Shown here one piece after another: positions 3,097-35,101 of a DNA stretch of 43,555 bases. The stretch covers positions 1 through 43,555 of the forward strand of contig LFWW01000003.1 in the NCBI GenBank assembly GCA_001273385.1, given 5' to 3'. The position numbers and the translations under genes were made by a program. The notes below the pieces were generated by a model that searched no databases, was not told where the DNA came from, and worked only from the letters and a program-made list of their open reading frames with translations. Every line of letters begins with the position of its first letter. The stretch's first letter is position 1. Origin of the DNA: a miscellaneous Crenarchaeota group-6 archaeon AD8-1 (GTDB taxonomy: Archaea > Thermoproteota > Bathyarchaeia > Bathyarchaeales > Bathycorpusculaceae).

Positions 3097-4884
3097 TTGT
3101 CAAAAAAAATTATAGGCAGAGTGTCTCGTGTCGCTGGTTCATTTGTAACTGCAAAATGTATGAGAGGATCTCAGATGTTTGAACTTGTAAAAGTGGGTGA
3201 TGCAGGAGTAATCGGTGAAATTATCCGACTTGAAGGAAATGTTGCAGTTATACAAGCCTACGAAGAGACAGAAGGAATAAAACTAGGAGAGAATGTTTTA
3301 GCAACAGGTAAACCATTATCTGTTGAACTTGGTCCAGGTTTAATTGGACAAATATTTGATGGTGTGCAAAGACCTTTAACTGTTATTTCAAATATGTTTG
3401 GTCCCTTCATTAAAAGAGGAGTAGAAACCTTAGCTCTTGATCCTAAGAAGGAATGGAAGTTTAACCCTATTCTAAAAAAAGGAGTTAAAGTTATTGGTGG
3501 AGATATTATTGGAACAGTCCAAGAAACATCATTATTAAATCAAGGAATTATGGTTCCTCCAAATATCTCAGGAATAATAGAGAATATTTACTCAGAAGGA
3601 AAATACACCATAATTGATCCAATTGCAAAAATTAAAACATCAAAAGGATTAGAGAATATTTTCCTGATGCATACTTGGCCAGTGAGAAAACCTCGACCAT
3701 ATAAAACTATGCTTCCTCCGACTGAACCTTTGTTAAGTGGACAGCGCATTATCGATTCTTTCTTCCCTATAGCAAAAGGTGGAATAACGGCTACAACAGG
3801 AGGTTTTGGAACAGGAAAAACTGTGGTTTTGCAGACTTTGGCTATGTGGGTCGATGCTGACGTTGTAGTTTACATTGGTTGCGGAGAAAGAGGCAATGAG
3901 ATGGCAGATGTTCTAAATAGATTTTCAAAATTAAAATTGGGCAGTTCTGATCATCCATTAATGGACAGGACTATTTTTGTTGCAAATGTTTCAAACATGC
4001 CCATTGTTGCTAGAGAAGCAAGTATATACACAGGAATAACTTTAGCAGAATATTACCGTGATATGGGTTATAATGTAGCTCTTATGGCAGATTCAACTTC
4101 TAGATGGGCAGAGGCTCTCCGAGAAATTTCAGGTCGCCTAGAAGAAATGCCAGGAGAAGAGGGATACCCTGCATATTTAGCTTCTAGATTAGCAGAATTT
4201 TATGCTAGGGCAGGACAAGTTAAGACTATGGGAACAAAAGACAGAGTCGGATCCATTACAGTCTTGGCTGCAATTTCTCCCCCTGGAGGCGACTTTTCAG
4301 AACCTGTTACAACTAATACCTTAAGAATTGCTAAAGTATTTTGGGCACTTGATTTTGCATTAGCTCACAGAAGACATTTTCCTGCAATAAATTGGTTCAT
4401 GAGCTATTCTGAATACATTCCTATGCTTGAGCCTTGGTTTGCAAAAGTTGAAAGAGATTGGCAAAAACTTTGCGGGGAGGCAAGAACTCTTCTCAAAGAG
4501 GAAGAGGAATTAAGAGAAATAGTTGCTTTAATAGGTGCAGAAATCTTAGGAGACAAACAGAGATCAGTTTTTGAAACGGCAAAAATGCTAAAAGAATATT
4601 TTCTACTTCAAAATGCTTTTCATCCTGTGGATGCGTATTGTCCAATTGCTAAGACTTATAAAATGCTACGTATCTTTTTGAAATTTTATGATAAAACTAA
4701 AACAGCTATAGAATCAGGGGTTCCTCTAACTAGAATTCTTGGTTTGCCCATTCGCGAAAAATTGAGTCGTCTAAAGATAACACCAACTAATGAATTCGAC
4801 CAAGTTTATAATGAAATTGATAAAGAAATGAATGAACAATTTGAGAAATTAGAGTTAAAAGATCTTGAGGAGGATAAGATATGA
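3097..4884 (+). CDS. atpA: A-type ATP synthase catalytic subunit A
   Basis: Catalytic, nucleotide-binding subunit of the A1 head (595 residues, typical length). The N-terminal beta barrel (about 1-75) is followed by the A-specific non-homologous insert (about 110-200), the P-loop GGFGTGKT (235-242), the [21 protein letters not shown] segment characteristic of A/V-type A subunits, and a helical C-terminal domain. The start is TTG, preceded by GTGATT as ribosome binding site, and reads [14 protein letters not shown] as expected. Its stop overlaps the atpB start by four bases (ATGA), indicating translational coupling. Confidence 0.98.
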
Positions 4885-6281
4885 GAAATAAATCTCATAT
4901 TGGAGTAAAATATTATACTATAAAAGAAATTACAGGACCATTGATTTTTTGTGAATCTGTTTCTGGTGTTGGTTTTGGTGAGATTGTAAAAGTATTAACT
5001 CCATCTGAAGGAGAAAAAATTGGCCAAGTTATTGACATTAGTGATGAGATTACTGTTATTCAAGTTTTTGAAGGAACATCCGGATTAAGTATAGAAACTA
5101 CAGCTGTTCGTTTCACTGGAGAAACGCTAAAGTTACCTGTTTCAACGGATATGTTTGGGCGTATGTTTACAGGAACTGGAGAACCTACAGATGGTGGTCC
5201 AAATATTATCCCAGAAAAATTTCTTGATATTCATGCACCTACAATAAATCCTTGTTCGAGAGAACATCCAACAAAGTTTATCCAAACAGGTATTTCAGTT
5301 ATAGATGGACTAAACACCTTGCTGCTTGGACAAAAACTTCCTTTATTATCAGGAACAGGATTACCACACAAACTATTAGCTTCACAAATTGTAAAACAAG
5401 CCAAAGTTGTAGGAGAAGAAGAAGGATTCACAATAATATTTGCGGCTATGGGAATAACCTCTGATGAAGTAAAATTCTTCAGAGATGATTTTCTGAGAAT
5501 GGGTGCTATGGGTAAGGTGATTATGTTTGTAAATCGTGCAGAAGAGCCTGCAATTGAGAGAATATTGACGCCTAGAATGGCTCTAACTGCGGCGGAATAT
5601 TTTGCATTTGAACACGATTTACATGTACTAGTAATACTCGTAGACATGACAAATTATTGTGAAGCCCTTCGTGAGATTTCGGCTTCTCGATTAGAAATAC
5701 CAGGAAGACGTGGATATCCAGGATACATGTATACCGATTTAGCAACGATATATGAGAGAGCGGGAATAATAAAAGGAAAAAAAGGATCCGTTACTCAAAT
5801 GCCAATTCTAACAATGCCTGACGATGACATAACACATCCTATATCAGATTTAACTAGTTACATCACTGAAGGCCAGATTATTCTTGATAGAGAAATGTTT
5901 AAAAAAGGAATTTATCCGCCTATCGATCCTTTACCTTGCTTATCCCGCTTAATGGATAAGGGTATTGGATCGAATAAAACAAGAGAAGACCACAAACAAC
6001 TTTCAGACCAACTTTATTATGCTTATGCTGAAGGTAAAATTGTGCAAGGTACCGCTTTAGTTTCAGGAGAAAAAGCATTAACTACTATTGATAAGCTGTA
6101 TCTTAAATTCATGGAGAGATTTGAAGAAGAATTTATCAGTCAAAACTATAATGAAAATCGAGACATAGAAGATACTCTAAATATTGGATGGAGACTCTTG
6201 TCAATACTTCCCAAACCAGAGCTAACAAGAATTGAACCAGAAATAATTAAAAAATATCATCCTAACCATGGAAAAAATTAG
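4881..6281 (+). CDS. atpB: A-type ATP synthase non-catalytic subunit B
   Basis: Non-catalytic partner of subunit A in the A3B3 head (466 residues). It lacks a canonical P-loop, having [14 protein letters not shown] at that position as B subunits do. It shows the conserved [36 protein letters not shown] stretch (in several parts) and [27 protein letters not shown] ribosome binding site (GAGGAT) lies inside the end of atpA. The start at 4881 adds about ten residues before [13 protein letters not shown] later start is not evident, so I keep it. Confidence 0.98.
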
Positions 6282-6300
6282 CATCTTAAAGTGAATTGAA

Positions 6301-6960
6301 ATGTCATCAGATAAAATGGAAGTTCATCCAACTAGACAGGAGTTATTGAAACTAAAAAAAAGAAAATCCTTAGCCGAAGGAATAGCAGATATATTACAAA
6401 AAGATCTAGAGACACTAATAATAAGCTTAATAGAATTTAGAAAGAAAGCGCATGTAGCCCGAGACCGATTATATGAAAAAATGGATTATGCCTATTCAAG
6501 TTTTTTTAAAGCAGAGATGAAGACTGGTTCCATTACAATCAAAGAAATATCCTTATCTTCACCAACTGTTGAATTTGGTATTGAAACAAATATAACAAAA
6601 GGAGTCTTAGGATTACCCTTCTCGATTTTCAATCTTATCAAGGAAGATAACTTAGAATCAAGATCTCGATTTGATATTTCAGAAACACCAGTTCAATTAG
6701 AAGAAGCATCTTCAACAATCCGAGAAGCAATAAATTTTATTGTTAAACTAGCAGAATTAACAGCCATAATAAGAGAGATTCTCGAACTGATATCAATAAA
6801 AAGAAGACAAATCAACAGGATCAGATTTAAAATCATACCTCAACTTGATGCTACAATCAAGTATGTAGAATTAATTCTTGAAGAAATTGAACGGCAGGAT
6901 GCCATCAGAGTAAGAGTTCTACAACGTAAACGTAAACAAAGATCAGCAAAAACAGTTTAG
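6301..6960 (+). CDS. atpD: A-type ATP synthase subunit D
   Basis: Central rotor shaft subunit, a long antiparallel coiled coil, 219 residues. The N terminus has the conserved VHPTRQELLKLKKRKSLAEG segment and the C terminus has the matching RRQINRIRFKIIPQLDATIKYVE helix with EEIERQDAIRVRVLQRKRK. The middle globular part (about 70-110) links the helices. It lies 19 bases after atpB and just before atpC in the same unit. Confidence 0.97.
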   Translation: MSSDKMEVHPTRQELLKLKKRKSLAEGIADILQKDLETLIISLIEFRKKAHVARDRLYEKMDYAYSSFFKAEMKTGSITIKEISLSSPTVEFGIETNITKGVLGLPFSIFNLIKEDNLESRSRFDISETPVQLEEASSTIREAINFIVKLAELTAIIREILELISIKRRQINRIRFKIIPQLDATIKYVELILEEIERQDAIRVRVLQRKRKQRSAKTV

Positions 6961-6972
6961 AGATATTTGATT

Positions 6973-8055
6973 ATGAAAACTTTGAAGTACAACGAAATCA
7001 TGCCTAGAGTTGCCATTGAAAAACTAAAGCTAATTGAAGAAGAAGATCTGGTTGATTTAGTTGGTAGAAACCTTGAAGCTATTCGTTGTGCATTAATAGA
7101 AACCTCATATAGAGATGAAATACTAAAATTATTACCCCAAGAAACTAATTCAAATTCTTTAGAAGAAGCTATACTCGAAAATTATGCACAGACAATGAAA
7201 AAATTAATAAATTTTTCATCAGGGAATCTAAAAAAATTACTCCTAGCATTTATTAGAAAAATTGAAACATCAAATATCAAATCTTTGTTAAGAGCGAAAA
7301 AAGCTAATATAAATTTAGATGAAGCAATCAACAATATGATCCCAATTGGATTCCTTACCAAGGATCGTTGTCGAGAGATATTATCTAAATCGAAAACTAT
7401 TGAGGATGTAATGGAACATCTTTTTGATACAGAATATGGAGATATTATTCAAAATAATATGACCGAAATAAAAACTGCCAATAGCTTATTACCACTAGAA
7501 CTTGCTTTAGATCAAGTAAGTTATACTGGAATTTCTAAAGTGATCGAAAAATTCAAAGGATTAGATAAAAAAATAGCAAAGAATGTTATAGGAATTGAGA
7601 TAGATTCTATAAATATTAAAATTATTTTAAGGGGAAAAGCCAAACGTATCCCAAAAGAGATAATAAAGAAATATTTGTTACCTTCTTTTTTTATTAGAAA
7701 AAATACATTTTTGAAAGGATTAGAAACATCGGATATGAATGATTTAATAGTCAGTCTAATGTCAAATAACAAGTTTGCCAACAATCCATTTTATAGAAAT
7801 ATTTTTAGTCAAATATTGGAAAAAAATTATTTATCAATGGGCCAAATTGAGCATGAGCTTGAAAAAGCTTCACTAAGAGTAAGTTTGAGTATGCAAAAAA
7901 AATATTTGAAGTATTATAACTTGAGTTCTGTTTTGGTACTACTTAACTTAAAAAGAATAGAAATCAAGAATTTAAGATGTATAATTGTTGGCTCAAAAAG
8001 AGAAGTTAATTCTTCTGAAGTTAAACGTTTTTTAATTCTAAAAAACAATAATTAA
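6973..8055 (+). CDS. atpC: A-type ATP synthase subunit C
   Basis: Funnel-shaped socket subunit (V-type d homologue) that joins the central stalk to the membrane ring, about 360 residues. Recognised by position, length and the all-helical, Leu/Lys-rich threefold pattern with motifs such as LRAKKANINLDEA, LRGKAKRIPKEI and the C-terminal LKRIEIKNLRCIIVG, which is diagnostic of the V/A-type C/d family. A TTG at 6967 would add two residues; I prefer the ATG at 6973. This is the last gene of the plus-strand unit and converges on atpK with only 48 bases between the stop codons. Confidence 0.93.
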   Translation: MKTLKYNEIMPRVAIEKLKLIEEEDLVDLVGRNLEAIRCALIETSYRDEILKLLPQETNSNSLEEAILENYAQTMKKLINFSSGNLKKLLLAFIRKIETSNIKSLLRAKKANINLDEAINNMIPIGFLTKDRCREILSKSKTIEDVMEHLFDTEYGDIIQNNMTEIKTANSLLPLELALDQVSYTGISKVIEKFKGLDKKIAKNVIGIEIDSINIKIILRGKAKRIPKEIIKKYLLPSFFIRKNTFLKGLETSDMNDLIVSLMSNNKFANNPFYRNIFSQILEKNYLSMGQIEHELEKASLRVSLSMQKKYLKYYNLSSVLVLLNLKRIEIKNLRCIIVGSKREVNSSEVKRFLILKNNN

Positions 8056-8103
8056 ATAGCATGTACATTAAAAACATAAACGCTTATTGATTGAGTTAAA
8101 TAT

Positions 8104-8550
8104 TTAGGGAACTAACATGAAAGCGATTAGCAGACCATAAATGGCTAATGCTTCAGACAACACCACACCTAAGATATTTGTGGCATAACTCTCAGGTTTC
8201 TCAACTGCAGCAGTCATTAAAGCTGGACCACAATATGATATTCCCAAACTTGCAGCTGCTGCAGCACCTCCCATAGCTACTCCTGCAAAAAGAGCCTGCA
8301 TCCCTGCAACTGTTGTACTGATGTCAGGCAGTTTAGATACTATCATAAAGGCAATTAATAGACCATAAATTGCAAGAGCTTCTCCTAATACAATAGTTAT
8401 TAGCAATCTGCTACCATACTCAGGTTTTTCAGAGGTTACTGAAGCCAAAGCTGGTGCACAATTGATTATTGCAAAAGCTGCACTCACACCAGAACCTATT
8501 GTAGCAACTGCAATTCCTATAATAGCATATGTGCTAGGATCCATATTCAT
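8104..8550 (-). CDS. atpK: A-type ATP synthase membrane ring subunit K (two-hairpin form)
   Basis: Proteolipid subunit of the Ao rotor ring. At 148 residues it is twice the basic c-subunit size. Four membrane helices form two hairpins that repeat each other: GEALAIYGLLIAFM near residues 56-69 and SEALAIYGLLIAFM at the C terminus. Both hairpins keep the ion-carrying Glu, so each protein should provide two binding sites. The AIGIGVATIGSG-type first helix is also typical. Its start lies 17 bases inside the end of atpI, so the I-K pair is translationally coupled. Whether it carries H+ or Na+ cannot be decided by eye. Confidence 0.97.
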   Translation of the reverse strand: MNMDPSTYAIIGIAVATIGSGVSAAFAIINCAPALASVTSEKPEYGSRLLITIVLGEALAIYGLLIAFMIVSKLPDISTTVAGMQALFAGVAMGGAAAAASLGISYCGPALMTAAVEKPESYATNILGVVLSEALAIYGLLIAFMLVP

Positions 8551-10579
8551 AATACTCCATAGATTTATTATTGAACTTTATTGGTTTAAAAGGAATTCCT
8601 TTTCCACTATAGAAACCTGGAAGCCATTCTACCCAATGAAGCCTTAAAGTGTGAACAAAGATGATAAGAGCTTCAATGGTTAATGCTAGTATTGTCCCGA
8701 CTGTTATCATAAGAATAGTGACCCATGTAAAAGAATGAGGTGCTCCACCTAATATAAGAAACATGTAATTTAGAGCTCCATGAGTAAGTGCTAAAGCTGC
8801 AAGACGGCCAAAAGATATTGTATGATCCAAAGACTCTATTAGAGTTGATATACTAAATTGTATTCCTTCCATTACACCTTTAATTAATGAAGATGCAATA
8901 GTCATTATCATTAATGGTAAAATAACTAATGCAAGAAACATGAAAAGTCCTTCTCCAAACCATTTCGCTAAATTTGAGATGCCCCCCCAATAAACCCACA
9001 TTGCAAATCCTCCTAATAACAGCCATAACCAACATACTGACACCAAAGTTTGAATTGATTGGTTATTTCGAATTTTATTTATTATTCTTAAAATTAAACT
9101 TAAACTTAAAACACCTACACCAATAAAAATTGATAATCTTAACATTTTTACTGGATCAAATATTGGATCAAATCCACCAATCTCAAAAGGTCCAATTGTA
9201 GCCAGAGACGTGGGATGAAGTATACCTGTTGGACCAAAAAAATTTCCGAAAAAAAATCCAAAGATCATCGATGAAATACCACAGAGAATAATTAATCCTG
9301 AGCCCATTAGCAAATAGCGGATAATATCTCCAACTTCTTCTGTATTAGTTATTCTCCGAAAATAAGATAAAACTAGGCCTGCAACAAATAGAAGCAACCC
9401 CTGTCCCACATCAGCAAACATAATTCCAAAAAGAAATGGAAATGTTAAAGCCACAATAAACACAGGATTAATTTCATCGGATTTTGGATAACCAAAAGAG
9501 AAAGTTAGGCTTTTAAAAGCTTCAAATAATCTTGGAACTGGCTTTATTATTGTTGGAACCGTATCTTCTGGTTCAGGAAGTTCATCTTTTATAATACAAT
9601 TTCCTTTTGTTAACTCTTTGATTCCATCCATAACTTTCTTGAGATCTTTATTTGGAACCCAAGCTTCCAGATAAACGGCAGAGGCTATACTTCCTAAATG
9701 ACTTTCTATTTTTTTAATTTCTTCTACCTCTTCAAGAAGATTTTGAAGGGATAAAAGTTTGGATTGAATTAGAACATATTCAGGTGACTTTTTTATTGAT
9801 TGACTTTCCAATTCAGCAAATTTTCTTAATTTTAATATTTGCTTTACAAGATTTTTTCTTTCTTGTGGAATTTTCTCAAGTATTTTCTCAACTGTAAGCT
9901 TTATTTTAATTAATTGCTTAGAATTATAGAATTTTGACAGTTTTGATTGTGATTTTTCCTCAAAATTTTTTAACGTTAATTCAATAAAATCTAAAAATTT
10001 TTCATCAATTGAATATTTAATTCCATTTGTTGGAAAATCGCTTGATTTTATTTTAAGTTTTTTAACTAATTTATTAATTTCGATCAGTATTTTTGGTGCT
10101 CGAAGAGATACAACTTCAATCTCTTTCATGCGAAATTCAATTTCAGAAAGTCTTTTCTCCGCAGAATTCAAAATATCCTCAGGAGATTCTTTTAGATAAT
10201 TTTCGCCATTAACTGCAAATTTTTTCCGATTGATCTTCCAAGAAGTTAATAACAGGTCAATTTTACGGATAATCTTAGAATAAGTAGCAAGGGGTTCAAT
10301 AAAAGAAGTAGTTTTAGCTTCTATTAAAGAAAGTTCTGTTTCAACCTTATCTAAGGTTTCATCAATTGTGTTTTCATGATGATAACCCTTTTTCTCAGTA
10401 TGTTTTTTTGGTTCAATTTCAAGAAGCCGAAGGTTCTTTTCAATTATTGTAAGTAAATTTTGAGGTCGGTTAACTAACTCACAGGATGTTGCATATTGAT
10501 CTAAAAGACCGCCATAAGATTCCAACTTCTCGTCAATATTTATACAATGTACAATACCCAAGTCGCCTAAGAAAAACAA
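8534..10579 (-). CDS. atpI: A-type ATP synthase subunit I (stator, a-subunit homologue)
   Basis: Membrane stator subunit that carries the ion half-channels. The N-terminal half (about 1-340) is soluble, with long coiled coils rich in Lys, Glu and Leu. The C-terminal half has about eight membrane helices, and the essential Arg lies in ISFGRLAALALTHGALN. The first ordinary start in frame is TTG at 10577-10579, giving 681 residues. However, homologous coding continues upstream in frame to 10642 (KDAQELRKIKAVFLDKYVDP, matching the family N terminus) without an ATG, GTG or TTG, and a TGA closes the frame at 10649-10651. A TTG at 10650-10652 in another frame would supply the missing start if one base were removed (see findings). 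Confidence 0.95.
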   Translation of the reverse strand: MFFLGDLGIVHCINIDEKLESYGGLLDQYATSCELVNRPQNLLTIIEKNLRLLEIEPKKHTEKKGYHHENTIDETLDKVETELSLIEAKTTSFIEPLATYSKIIRKIDLLLTSWKINRKKFAVNGENYLKESPEDILNSAEKRLSEIEFRMKEIEVVSLRAPKILIEINKLVKKLKIKSSDFPTNGIKYSIDEKFLDFIELTLKNFEEKSQSKLSKFYNSKQLIKIKLTVEKILEKIPQERKNLVKQILKLRKFAELESQSIKKSPEYVLIQSKLLSLQNLLEEVEEIKKIESHLGSIASAVYLEAWVPNKDLKKVMDGIKELTKGNCIIKDELPEPEDTVPTIIKPVPRLFEAFKSLTFSFGYPKSDEINPVFIVALTFPFLFGIMFADVGQGLLLFVAGLVLSYFRRITNTEEVGDIIRYLLMGSGLIILCGISSMIFGFFFGNFFGPTGILHPTSLATIGPFEIGGFDPIFDPVKMLRLSIFIGVGVLSLSLILRIINKIRNNQSIQTLVSVCWLWLLLGGFAMWVYWGGISNLAKWFGEGLFMFLALVILPLMIMTIASSLIKGVMEGIQFSISTLIESLDHTISFGRLAALALTHGALNYMFLILGGAPHSFTWVTILMITVGTILALTIEALIIFVHTLRLHWVEWLPGFYSGKGIPFKPIKFNNKSMEYYEYGS

Positions 10580-16004: not shown

Positions 16005-17513
16005 CTACATACCTAGCTTTAATCTACGATAAGTTGTGTAATCAACGAATTTGATAAATTGATTTTCTGTTTGGGATTTGATATTAATTTTTTGTCTCTC
16101 TCTTTTTTCTCTTATTTGGCTTGTTGTTCTAAGCAGATATGAATCGCTACCTGCTCCTGAACCATAACTTGTTACAATGATTAGGTCTTCTGGTTTTGCA
16201 ATGTCCAAAACAGCAGCTAAGCCTATAGGTGAACATCCAGAGTAAGTGTTCCCAAATTTGTTTACTTGAAGGGAGATAGAATACTGATCTTCTTTAAAAC
16301 CCAATTGTGCAGCAACCTTAACTGGAAATCTTGGATTAGGTTGGTGAGTGATAAAATAGTCTATATCGATTGGCTTAAGATTACATTTTTCCATAAGTTT
16401 TTCGGTTGCCTTTTTTACATGCTTAAAGTATGCTGGATCACCAGTAAAGCGACCCCCATGTAGCGGAAAAGGTTGACCATCTCTTCTCCAAAAATCAGGG
16501 GTATCAGAAGTAATAGAGTACCATCCTTCAATTTTGGCAATAAGATCAGTTTTCCCAAAAATGTAAGCCGATCCACCAAACCCAACAAAATCATCAAGTT
16601 CTCCTCCCGGACAACCTTTTGGAGCTGCTTGGGAGTTATCAGAACCAATAACCATAGCATACTTGATTTCAGAATCATAATAGTTTACTAAAGAAGCAGC
16701 ATCTTTAAACATACTCGAAGCTGCTTTGCATGCAAATTCTGTATCAATGGCATCAACAGCCTGCATATCTTCTTCTTCTTTACCTAGCCTTAAAACTTGA
16801 GCGACTTTTGACGCAATAGGCTTGACAGCATATGGATTCGATTCCGAACCAACATATACCTTGCCCACAAGTGAACTATCGATTGCTGAATGTATCAAAG
16901 CCATTTTTCCTGCTTCTACAGCTGCTGTTACTGAGTCTTCATCGATAAAAGGAACGGCTCTTTCGATTCTATTCTCTTTTATTCTAAACCTTGAGGTATA
17001 TACACCATAACCTACAATTCCTGGAGTATCATATTCTTTGCTAGAGGGAACAATTTTGTATTCTTGGTGTGGATAATATTCATCAGCTAAAGTAAAAGCT
17101 AACGAGATTGTAGGAATTACTTCAGTGGCACTAACAGAATATCTTCTTCTAAAACGCGGTATAACTTCTCTTCCTTCAAGATCTGAAAAATCAACAAGTT
17201 CATCTTCTTTTATTATTTGATCAGTTAATCTGCCTGGAACTCGAATTTTACCATCATGAAAAGATATGATACCGTAAATGTAACTTCCAAGCTTTCTAAA
17301 CTTATTTGTTGGTTCATTTACAAGAGTACAAAATTCAAGTTTTCCTTTATCATAAAATAGATTGATATTTTGCATTTTGCCAAAGCTTTTCCTTCCGCAA
17401 TTTCCACAATAATCTCTTGCGTCAAAATATTCCTGTCCACAAATGCTGCATCGACAAGCTCTTAAAGTATCACCAATATAAGAAACCCGTCTTTCTATTG
17501 GTTCACTGCTCAA
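16005..17513 (-). CDS. DUF35-HMG-CoA synthase fusion protein
   Basis: A two-part protein of 502 residues. Residues about 15-130 are a DUF35 module: a zinc ribbon (C22-x2-C25, C36-x2-C39) followed by an OB-like segment (KLEFCTLVNEPTNKF, YGIISFHDGKIRVPGRL). Residues about 163-460 are an archaeal HMG-CoA synthase with the catalytic triad intact: E224 (GSESNPYAV), C262 (EFACKAASSMF) and H390 (HQPNPRFP). The family condenses acetyl-CoA with acetoacetyl-CoA, the committed step towards mevalonate and archaeal lipids. In characterised archaea DUF35 is a separate scaffold protein bridging thiolase and synthase. The TTG start overlaps the thiolase-like gene by 11 bases, with GGAGGAGA as ribosome binding site. 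Confidence 0.93.
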   Translation of the reverse strand: MSSEPIERRVSYIGDTLRACRCSICGQEYFDARDYCGNCGRKSFGKMQNINLFYDKGKLEFCTLVNEPTNKFRKLGSYIYGIISFHDGKIRVPGRLTDQIIKEDELVDFSDLEGREVIPRFRRRYSVSATEVIPTISLAFTLADEYYPHQEYKIVPSSKEYDTPGIVGYGVYTSRFRIKENRIERAVPFIDEDSVTAAVEAGKMALIHSAIDSSLVGKVYVGSESNPYAVKPIASKVAQVLRLGKEEEDMQAVDAIDTEFACKAASSMFKDAASLVNYYDSEIKYAMVIGSDNSQAAPKGCPGGELDDFVGFGGSAYIFGKTDLIAKIEGWYSITSDTPDFWRRDGQPFPLHGGRFTGDPAYFKHVKKATEKLMEKCNLKPIDIDYFITHQPNPRFPVKVAAQLGFKEDQYSISLQVNKFGNTYSGCSPIGLAAVLDIAKPEDLIIVTSYGSGAGSDSYLLRTTSQIREKRERQKINIKSQTENQFIKFVDYTTYRRLKLGM

Positions 17514-18714
17514 TTATTTCTCCTCCTAGTATAGTAATGTAGGCTTTGGTACCAAAACCTTCAAGCTCTTGAACGCACCCAAATTTAGGAATATTATTAT
17601 CTATCATAACTTGTCGATCACCAGCTTGATTTTTCAACTGTTTAACTACCTCAAAGATTTGAGCACCCCCAGTTGCTCCTATAGGATTTCCATCCGCTTT
17701 TAGACCGCCATTTGTATTAACAAATAATTTCGTACCATTCACTTCATAATATCCTTCATAATTATCACAAGTACCTCGAATATTTCTCCATGCTGTTCCT
17801 GCTTCACAAAATCCCAAATCTTCAATAGAAATAAGTTCCATAACAGTTGATTGATCATAAACTTCAGCTATTCCAATATCAATTAAGGGGATTTCAGCCA
17901 TTTTCAAAGCTTTTTTCATAGCTATTCTAGTTGCAGAAAAACCAGTGAGATCTCTTCTTGAAGGAAAAGTTATAAAATCTGTTGCAGAAGATTCACCTAA
18001 AACATAAATTGGCTGATCAGTAAATCTATTTGCAAGACTTGCATTAGTAAGGATTAAAGCCGAAGCACCATCTGATATAGGAGCAAAATCATAAAGACCC
18101 AATAATTTTCTCGCATTTTTTCTAGCACTTAAAACATGTTCAATTGTTATTCTTCGGTGAAATTGGGCAAATTTATTTTTTAGAGCTTGAGCATGGTTTT
18201 TAACTGAGATTTTTGCTAAAGCAAGATTAAGTTTATCCAAATCATCTCCAGATACATTATGCTTCTTTATATAAGCTCTTAACATAAGTTCATGATTAGC
18301 TTCTGGAGTACCTCCAGCATAATAACTCCAAGGATCTTCCAAAAGCATAAGATCATCCCGGATTTTATCCCAACGATCAGTCATTTTCTCTATTCCACCA
18401 ACCAAAACTGTATTATAAACTCCAGCTTTGATTGCATTACATGCAGCCAGAAGAGCAGCACTAACAGAACTAGTGACCTCCATTGGGACATGAAGTTGAG
18501 TAAGCTCAGAAAGAAAACCCTCTTCTAGACCCAGTTTATTGGTTATTGGCAAAAAACAATCTGAGAGATAACAAGCCTCTAGATTCTTACGTTCAAGGCT
18601 GCACTCATTTGAAGCTGTGAGCCATGCCTCTTCAATAAGTTGTTCTGGCTTCTTTCCATAATGCTCTCCAAATTTTGTTCGACCAACTGCCACTATAGCT
18701 GGATTATTTTGCAT
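17503..18714 (-). CDS. Thiolase-like protein lacking canonical catalytic residues
   Basis: Thiolase-fold protein of 403 residues (SCP-x/archaeal acetoacetyl-CoA thiolase type). Family landmarks are AIVAVGRTKFGEHYG, NTVLVGGIEKM, APISDGASALIL, EDLGFCEAGTAWRNI and NTNGGLKADGNPIGATGGAQ. The nucleophile position, normally a CAS(G) cysteine, reads EVTSSVSAALLA (T81-S82-S83, no Cys). The catalytic GHP histidine is N343 (GNP), the EVHD histidine is Y286 (EVYD), and the C-terminal HN pair is QE. It is the first gene of an overlapping pair with the DUF35-HMG-CoA synthase. It could be a pseudoenzyme scaffold or an enzyme with other chemistry, such as the Cys-less Ltp2-type aldolases that work with DUF35 partners. 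Confidence 0.88.
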   Translation of the reverse strand: MQNNPAIVAVGRTKFGEHYGKKPEQLIEEAWLTASNECSLERKNLEACYLSDCFLPITNKLGLEEGFLSELTQLHVPMEVTSSVSAALLAACNAIKAGVYNTVLVGGIEKMTDRWDKIRDDLMLLEDPWSYYAGGTPEANHELMLRAYIKKHNVSGDDLDKLNLALAKISVKNHAQALKNKFAQFHRRITIEHVLSARKNARKLLGLYDFAPISDGASALILTNASLANRFTDQPIYVLGESSATDFITFPSRRDLTGFSATRIAMKKALKMAEIPLIDIGIAEVYDQSTVMELISIEDLGFCEAGTAWRNIRGTCDNYEGYYEVNGTKLFVNTNGGLKADGNPIGATGGAQIFEVVKQLKNQAGDRQVMIDNNIPKFGCVQELEGFGTKAYITILGGEIIEQ

Positions 18715-26084: not shown

Positions 26085-27185
26085 CTAAAAATAAATGTGA
26101 AGCTGTTTTTGATTTTCTTTATTCGAAGTAAATTTAGATATCTTGATACCTATACGTCTTATTTCTTTTTTGGATTCATTCAGAAACAATTCGATTAGTT
26201 TTTTAACAGTTTTTTTAAGCAGGTTTATATCATTGGTGGAATTATTCAAAGTTTTTGATTTGGATCGAAAACTTAAATCTGTCATAACTGCAATTATTTC
26301 AACTCTTTTGAATTTCAATTTTTTATCCATCAAATCTTTATGAACTTGAGATATTAGTTGATCAGTTTTCTTAATTAGAAGAGTCAAATTACGGGTATTT
26401 TCTTTAAGAGTAGAAATTCTACTAATTGAATTTTTTTCAATTGTTTCATGAACAAGATCTTTGCTTACACCACTTGCAACATTATGAAAATATATTCCAA
26501 GGGTCCTTCCGAAAAAAGCAACCAATTTTTGTATATCATATTTTGCTAGTTGTTCAATCGTATTTATGCCTAAAGAGTTCAGTTTTTTAGCAGTCTTTTT
26601 TCCCACTCCAGGAATACGAATAACAGGTAAAGATTTAAGAAAATTCTTCACATTATCAGGTTTAACAACTGTTATTCCATTAGGTTTATTATAATCAGCA
26701 GCCATTTTTGCTATGAGTTTATTGGGTCCTATGCCTGCCGAAAAACTAAGTCCTAGTTTATTTTTAATTTCATTTTTTATATTATTAGTATACATAAATC
26801 CTTCATCAAAGCTTCCCTGAACTTTTCTAGAAATATCTAGATAAGCTTCATCGATTCCTACTTGTTCAAAAATATCAGAGCATGACCTAAGAAATAACAT
26901 AACATCATCAGAAATTTTTTTATAATATTCATAATCAACAGGAAGAAATATCGCATCAAGATTTTCAAGTCTTTTTTTAGCTAAATATAGTGAAAGCCCG
27001 GAATTAACACCAAATTTTCTAGCAATATAATTTGCAGTGCTAACAGCTCCACTATCTTCTGTTCTACCAGAATAAACTCCTATAACAACTGGTTTCTTTT
27101 TAAGATCTGGATTTCTAATTTCTTCACATTGAGCAAAAAAGTAATCTAAATCTACTAAGATTATTATTCTTGATCTTGTCGAAAT
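26085..27185 (-). CDS. dinB: Y-family DNA polymerase (Dpo4/DinB type)
   Basis: Translesion DNA polymerase IV. The open frame gives about 366 residues, near Sulfolobus Dpo4 (352). Catalytic acids are in RIIILVDLDYFFAQCEEIRN near the N terminus and in GIDEAYLDIS. GRTEDSGAVSTANYIARKFGV matches the fingers, KNFLKSLPVIRIPGVGKKTA gives the helix-hairpin-helix, and a little-finger domain follows. The C terminus QKQLHIYF is a good PIP box (Q-x-x-L-x-x-Y-F) for binding the PCNA clamp. The first ATG in frame (26898-26900) would delete the first catalytic Asp. Homologous coding runs back to 27185 without ATG/GTG/TTG. I take ATT 27183-27185, just after an AGGTGA, as provisional start. Confidence 0.88.
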   Translation of the reverse strand: MSTRSRIIILVDLDYFFAQCEEIRNPDLKKKPVVIGVYSGRTEDSGAVSTANYIARKFGVNSGLSLYLAKKRLENLDAIFLPVDYEYYKKISDDVMLFLRSCSDIFEQVGIDEAYLDISRKVQGSFDEGFMYTNNIKNEIKNKLGLSFSAGIGPNKLIAKMAADYNKPNGITVVKPDNVKNFLKSLPVIRIPGVGKKTAKKLNSLGINTIEQLAKYDIQKLVAFFGRTLGIYFHNVASGVSKDLVHETIEKNSISRISTLKENTRNLTLLIKKTDQLISQVHKDLMDKKLKFKRVEIIAVMTDLSFRSKSKTLNNSTNDINLLKKTVKKLIELFLNESKKEIRRIGIKISKFTSNKENQKQLHIYF

Positions 27186-34285: not shown

Positions 34286-35101
34286 GTGAAAATTGAAGTT
34301 CAAGAAAAAGATGAAAAAATTATTCGATTAATTGTCAAAGATGTTGATGTTTCATTGATGAACAGCTTACGAAGAATAATAGTTTCAGAAGTCCCAAGCA
34401 TGTCAATTGATGAAGTAGTTGTGATCGAAAACTCCTCGATTTTGCAGGATGAAATTATTTCACATAGGTTAGGACTTATACCTTTAACTACAGATTTAGA
34501 AGGTTACAATCTTCCTGAAAATTGTTCATGCGCAAGCGAATTTGGATGCAATCTTTGTCGAGTAACATTAACAATGAACTCAGAAGCTAGGGATCAAACG
34601 CAAACTGTATATTCTGGAGAATTAGTCTCAGAAAATCCAGCTGTGATCCCAGTCTCTGACAAAATTCCTATAGTAAAACTATCAAAAGGACAAAAATTAA
34701 AGTTTGAAGCATATGCAAGATTGGGAAAAGGGAAAAAACATGCAAAGTGGCAACCGGTCTCAATGTGCACCTATAAGTACTATCCTAAAATTGAGGTACC
34801 GAGTAAAGAGTGTAAAGATTGTTCAAAATGTGTAGATATATGTCCAAAAAGAGTACTTGGAATGAAGGGGAAAAGGGTTGAAATAAAGAACCTTCTTGCT
34901 TGCAATTTATGCATGGATTGTGTTGATGAATGCCCAAAAAATGTGCCACCAATAAAAATTACTTGGGAAAAAAATGCTTATATTTTGAGTATAGAGTCGA
35001 CAGGAGTGCTACCTCCAGAGAAAATAATCCAACAAACAACTAAAATATTAGAAGAACAACTTACTGAATTAAAGAGAGAAATCGAGGCAATAAAGAAGTG
35101 A
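34286..35101 (+). CDS. rpoD: RNA polymerase subunit D (Rpo3) with a double [4Fe-4S] domain
   Basis: Assembly-platform subunit (Rpb3/alpha homologue), 271 residues. Dimerisation domain: VDVSLMNSLRRIIVSEVPSM, then HRLGLIPL. The inserted ferredoxin-like domain has two complete sets, C176-x2-C179-x2-C182-x3-C186-P and C206-x2-C209-x2-C212-x3-C216-P, so two [4Fe-4S] clusters are predicted. A further four Cys lie at 80, 82, 88 and 91. The GTG start follows a 157-base spacer after rps11, which may hold an internal promoter. It overlaps rpl18e by four bases (GTGA). Confidence 0.97.
   Translation: MKIEVQEKDEKIIRLIVKDVDVSLMNSLRRIIVSEVPSMSIDEVVVIENSSILQDEIISHRLGLIPLTTDLEGYNLPENCSCASEFGCNLCRVTLTMNSEARDQTQTVYSGELVSENPAVIPVSDKIPIVKLSKGQKLKFEAYARLGKGKKHAKWQPVSMCTYKYYPKIEVPSKECKDCSKCVDICPKRVLGMKGKRVEIKNLLACNLCMDCVDECPKNVPPIKITWEKNAYILSIESTGVLPPEKIIQQTTKILEEQLTELKREIEAIKK

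Follow-up and report, generated by a model that had tools for sequence, protein, structure and literature searches.

The window, by which we mean the whole stretch of 43,555 nucleotides analysed, belongs to a Bathyarchaeia metagenome-assembled genome (MAG; 1.58 Mb, 93% complete) and carries on its minus strand two overlapping genes, one for a 403-aa thiolase-like protein and one for a 502-aa fusion of DUF35 and HMG-CoA synthase (HMGCS) domains. The Pfam domains Thiolase_N and Thiolase_C_1 were recognised in the 403-aa protein, whose nearest relatives are found in Candidatus Bathyarchaeota MAGs, and the overlap with a DUF35-HMGCS gene that had been pointed out in a first-pass annotation was borne out. 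The features of the pair are as follows.

17503..18714, minus strand: predicted pseudo-thiolase gene coding for 403 aa, from its ATG to the stop codon; thiolase/SCP2-thiolase fold lacking the catalytic Cys and His
18469..18474, minus strand: pseudo-thiolase codons 81-82 (T-S), the junction at which the 4-residue nucleophile turn (inside EAACAS of intact relatives) is absent
17851..17859, minus strand: pseudo-thiolase codons 286-288 (Y-D-Q), in place of H-D-C of EVHDCF
17686..17688, minus strand: pseudo-thiolase codon 343 (N), in place of the catalytic His of GHP
17566..17571, minus strand: pseudo-thiolase codons 382-383 (Q-E), in place of HN in the last active-site loop
17503..17513, minus strand: overlap of the pseudo-thiolase and DUF35::HMGCS reading frames, 11 bp
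16005..17513, minus strand: DUF35::HMGCS fusion gene, 502 aa; N-terminal zinc ribbon and OB, then archaeal HMGCS
17397..17450, minus strand: DUF35 zinc-ribbon region, C22-x2-C25 ... C36-x2-C39, its four Cys unchanged throughout 79 sequences
16842..16844, minus strand: HMGCS catalytic Glu224 (SESNPY), equivalent to Glu82 in 6ESQ; invariant
16728..16730, minus strand: HMGCS catalytic Cys262 (EFACKA), equivalent to Cys114 in 6ESQ; invariant
16344..16346, minus strand: HMGCS His390 (HQPN); invariant

The 502-aa protein was identified as an archaeal HMGCS (NCBIfam NF003274, 357 bits against a cut-off of 244), with an N-terminus matching the DUF35 chain of 6ESQ. By profile and protein searches, on which all genome-wide statements here are based, this fusion was the only HMGCS in the genome above the family cut-off, and an HMG-CoA reductase was also found, the simplest reading being that the mevalonate pathway runs via the DUF35::HMGCS synthase. 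The earlier doubt whether HMG-CoA is simply what the pair makes finds no support in these data, as the Cys, His and Glu of the sole HMGCS are invariant and the reductase is present. The HMGCS gene adjoined the pseudo-thiolase gene in 78/78 loci where the contig was long enough. In the same taxonomic class, the HMGCS frames at three further loci (L137, L138 and L139) are 508-527 aa long and carry some 165 additional C-terminal residues; they are possibly fusions in the reverse order.

Residues 79-90 of the 403-aa protein read EVTSSVSAALLA, and the residues named in the first-pass annotation, with no Cys at the nucleophile, Y286 (in AEVYD), N343 (in GNP) and Q382-E383 at the expected place of HN, were all present as described. 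Conservation was followed in an orthologue set of 80 proteins from GTDB genomes (63-85% identity; 81 sequences with the window protein) and in a wider set of 96 sequences, consisting of these 81 and 15 more distant members. The nucleophile Cys was absent in 80/80 GTDB orthologues and in 96/96 sequences of the wider set, and the idea of a rare oddity of one genome was rejected on this count. Position 343 was Asn in 96/96, and position 286 was Tyr in 66, Asn in 14 and Cys in 1 of the 81. Within the Cys-less clade D287, Q288 and S289 were invariant and Glu at position 383 was nearly so, HN having become xE.

When the window protein was compared with intact relatives, by sequence and by AlphaFold2 modelling, the turn that bears the Cys was found to be missing. 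In the alignment to the nearest intact relatives (PMTQTEAACASSSSAL versus PMEVT----SSVSAAL) a gap of 4 residues, held in place by anchored alignment on either flank, deletes the nucleophile turn in 96/96 sequences. The model of the window protein (pLDDT 85) passes from strand MEVT into helix 84-96, and that of an intact relative (pLDDT 88) from strand MTQT into helix 88-104, which bears C89 at its beginning. As the models of both proteins agree with the alignment, it is more accurate to say that the Cys was lost by excision of its turn; the earlier description of Thr/Ser at the nucleophile position was thus right as to the absent Cys but not as to a simple replacement. Residues T81, S82 and S83 do lie near the nucleophile elbow, S83 being invariant, as might be expected were the protein an acetoacetyl-CoA thiolase still active through a Thr or Ser nucleophile. 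We hold this to be very improbable, given that the turn is deleted, that position 81 is T in 68/81 and otherwise V, M, A or S, that position 82 is Arg in 78/81 (Ser in the window protein), that both catalytic His are gone and that a second, intact thiolase is almost always present. On the evidence of sequence and models, loss of the Cys turn and both His would make a Cys-based Claisen reaction impossible.

The claim that the fold is otherwise conserved was upheld. The first Foldseek matches of the window protein were 6et9_C and 6esq_A (TM 0.87/0.90) and the best phmmer match was 6esq, the top match in both sequence and fold being the thiolase subunit of the M. thermolithotrophicus complex. Foldseek matches also included 6ok1 and 9myr, and the steroid aldolases Ltp2-ChsH2(DUF35) and Sal-Shy(DUF35) (6OK1, 9MYR) resemble the window pair in having a thiolase fold without thiolase chemistry and a DUF35 partner. 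A retro-aldolase of this Ltp2/Sal type, acting with DUF35, would also accord with the Tyr-Asp at the EVHD place. The motif is however [Y/N]DQS in 80/81 sequences, as opposed to YDHF or YDCY in the aldolases (PMC12329534), whose second catalytic residue is Tyr344 in TcLtp2 and Cys304 in CtSal; the place of CtSal Cys304 is taken by Gln288 in the window protein. The essential Tyr is Asn in 14/81, the partner is HMG-CoA synthase and not a steroid hydratase, and both tree and fold group the protein with HMGCS thiolases, so that a retro-aldolase seems a far-fetched reading and the parallel with Ltp2 drawn in the first-pass annotation fails on its motif and on its catalytic Tyr. Another archaeal thiolase-like protein, ST0096 of Sulfolobus tokodaii (4YZO), similarly has no Cys in its nucleophile segment NTSGSGGSA but, unlike the window protein, retains HD and GHP and has no 4-aa excision.

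The pseudo-thiolase gene is under strong purifying selection, with dN/dS of 0.08-0.11 (0.11 and 0.09 against two close relatives), in the range of the intact second thiolase (0.11-0.12), while the HMGCS fusion gave 0.05; all these values are rough, as dS was near saturation. The loss of every catalytic motif is what a decaying pseudogene or an assembly artefact might also produce, but full-length frames at 80 loci and a dN/dS of about 0.1 leave this almost no probability, and pseudogene and assembly error were both rejected by conservation and dN/dS.

The genome was searched for a second, intact thiolase and one further thiolase was found, on contig C28, with all catalytic motifs kept (EAACASS, EVHDCF, GHP and HNVGGSG) and its gene followed by a stand-alone DUF35 gene. 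The same pairing of intact thiolase and DUF35 was present in 20/20 other genomes of the family sampled, these having been selected for a second match; among near-complete genomes of the family taken without such selection, 50/53 had at least two thiolase matches. Of the remaining three, one (G074) is without the usual second thiolase and instead encodes an acetyl-CoA acetyltransferase of bacterial type in which every catalytic residue is intact (L140:1255-2553), about 20 kb from its pseudo-thiolase locus, and no second thiolase was found in the other two (G006 and G083), nor in a further MAG (G123); incompleteness of these three MAGs is perhaps the reason for its absence.

The order of events could be read from a sister lineage that forms another family within the phylum (f19; genomes G096, G120 and G128) and in which a thiolase gene is followed by a DUF35::HMGCS fusion in the same architecture. 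Its thiolase is fully intact (EAACASSS, EVHDCF, GHP and HN), no other thiolases were found in the three genomes, and in the tree its position as sister of the Cys-less clade is fully supported. An intact thiolase beside the same fusion indicates that the fusion came first and the catalytic loss second.

Cys-less partners were not confined to this clade. Across 60 HMGCS neighbourhoods from Thermoproteota (L160-L219), the adjacent thiolase had no Cys in many families and kept it in others, with Asp, Glu, Gly, Gln, Ala or Ser at the Cys place and variants reading EAGEASG, ENADGSG, EAGDASG, EAAQASG and DAGGASG. The Cys to Gln change in EAAQASG is like that of decarboxylating KSQ domains. A tree of 84 sequences required at least four changes of Cys state on well-supported branches, at least three of them in the HMGCS-adjacent gene and one other in an HMGCS-unlinked second paralogue (in family f29). 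Where the HMGCS partner was Cys-less, another Cys thiolase was present in 31/35 Thermoproteota genomes (a set that includes fusion-type genomes picked for having a second match), and where the partner bore the Cys no other thiolase was present in 24/26 genomes and another in 2/26 (Fisher p = 1.2e-10, uncorrected for phylogeny). As the genomes are related, this p-value overstates their independence, and more weight belongs to how many times the Cys was lost separately. Judged by these motifs and the tree, catalytic loss goes along with a separate thiolase, and Cys loss beside HMGCS evolved separately elsewhere in the phylum, outside the Bathyarchaeia-type clade. In the small, near-complete genomes of f29 (G139, G208 and G290) none of the thiolase loci detected had the Cys: their HMGCS-adjacent thiolases are without Cys (HMGCS loci L178, L179 and L217), and the other thiolase (L234, L236 and L237) reads ENTSGSGG, with Ser for Cys and with HD and GHP kept. 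In f29, either Ser would serve as nucleophile or acetoacetyl-CoA would come from another source.

The archaeal thiolase/HMG-CoA synthase complex passes acetoacetyl-CoA from site to site, which aids an unfavourable condensation. The window pair is like the 6ESQ complex in the fold of its thiolase subunit, its gene neighbourhood, an archaeal HMGCS with Cys, Glu and His, and a DUF35 zinc ribbon, and differs from it in that the thiolase subunit has lost the Cys and both His through changes that include the 4-aa excision and in that DUF35 is fused to the HMGCS N-terminus. PMC12329534 describes, for 6ESQ, a CoA site common to thiolase and synthase at their interface. We consider it probable that the 403-aa protein is a pseudo-thiolase, kept as a structural or CoA-site subunit of HMGCS, with acetoacetyl-CoA made elsewhere. 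Its ancestor would have been the acetoacetyl-CoA thiolase subunit of an archaeal thiolase/DUF35/HMG-CoA synthase complex, in which DUF35 became fused to HMGCS before the thiolase subunit lost its Cys turn and both catalytic His. By analogy with the 6ESQ complex, HMGCS would still need the pseudo-thiolase as a structural partner, which would still bind the DUF35 part and help to complete the shared CoA site at the thiolase/DUF35/synthase interface. Acetoacetyl-CoA would be supplied by the separate intact thiolase, here that of the C28 thiolase-DUF35 pair, and may reach the synthase through diffusion or transient docking. The pseudoenzyme scaffold proposed in the first-pass annotation is well supported in this respect, by the loss of the Cys turn and both His, the purifying selection, the adjacency to HMGCS and the intact thiolase elsewhere. 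As the first enzyme of the relay looks dead and the gene pairing is yet kept, channelling would not be the reason for retention.

Compared with f19, the Cys-less clade has 30 newly fixed positions, more than a pure scaffold would obviously need. They include polar residues where the active-site motifs used to be (Q288, S289, N343, E383 and K390) as well as H141, R119 and E138, all of them fixed in at least 94/96 sequences and absent in f19. Fixation of new polar residues in the old pocket leaves room for a new ligand site or chemistry, and these clade-specific invariant residues, missing in the intact sister, are what would be expected of a neofunctionalised subunit, its rebuilt pocket binding a new ligand (as in allosteric feedback on HMGCS) or catalysing another acyl-CoA reaction. 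We think this unlikely, though worth keeping in view, since the invariance may stem from packing once the Cys turn had been excised, the place of the former EVHD His varies (Y or N), and the residues in other Thermoproteota that lost the Cys are quite different, which suggests that loss of chemistry is the common factor. Similarly speculative is a combined picture, in which the thiolase reaction was lost recurrently in Thermoproteota and the dead subunit of the Bathyarchaeia type gained a new metabolite-sensing pocket gating HMGCS; if true, such a metabolite-sensing pseudo-thiolase would act in archaea as a control point for the synthesis of isoprenoid lipids.

That one partner of a thiolase/DUF35/HMGCS-like assembly can be dead is an idea already known. 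The Friedel-Crafts acylase PhlABC / PpATase (5M3K) is, like the assembly predicted here, a three-part thiolase-like/DUF35/HMGCS-like set with one dead partner; in that enzyme the dead member is the HMGCS-like PhlA and the active one the thiolase-like PhlC (PMC6392133), whereas in the window pair the roles are reversed, with the thiolase predicted to be dead and HMGCS intact. What appears to be new is a putatively dead thiolase beside a live HMGCS, fixed across a clade including Bathyarchaeia. We found no earlier description of a Cys-less HMGCS-bound thiolase in the open literature, a scope that does not take in the PNAS 2018 paper on 6ESQ. The thiolase from which membrane-lipid synthesis normally receives its starting molecule is without its catalytic loop in Bathyarchaeia and certain related archaea, and a separate thiolase appears to substitute for it. 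The annotation 'acetoacetyl-CoA thiolase' for the HMGCS-adjacent gene is probably wrong in many archaea, and the Cys-less thiolases offer ready natural mutants for separating the structural and catalytic roles of the complex.

Elsewhere in the window, A-type ATP synthase genes lie at 3097-10579, with A, B, D and C/AC39 on the plus strand and a large V_ATPase_I subunit on the minus strand within the same region. An RNA polymerase Rpo3 (Rpb3/RpoA) gene with a ferredoxin-like 4Fe-4S domain lies at 34286-35101 on the plus strand. At 26085-26900 on the minus strand, a DinB/Y-family polymerase-like ORF matches the IMS domain only at its later part (profile 83-148), and its N-terminal palm seems to be missing or out of frame.
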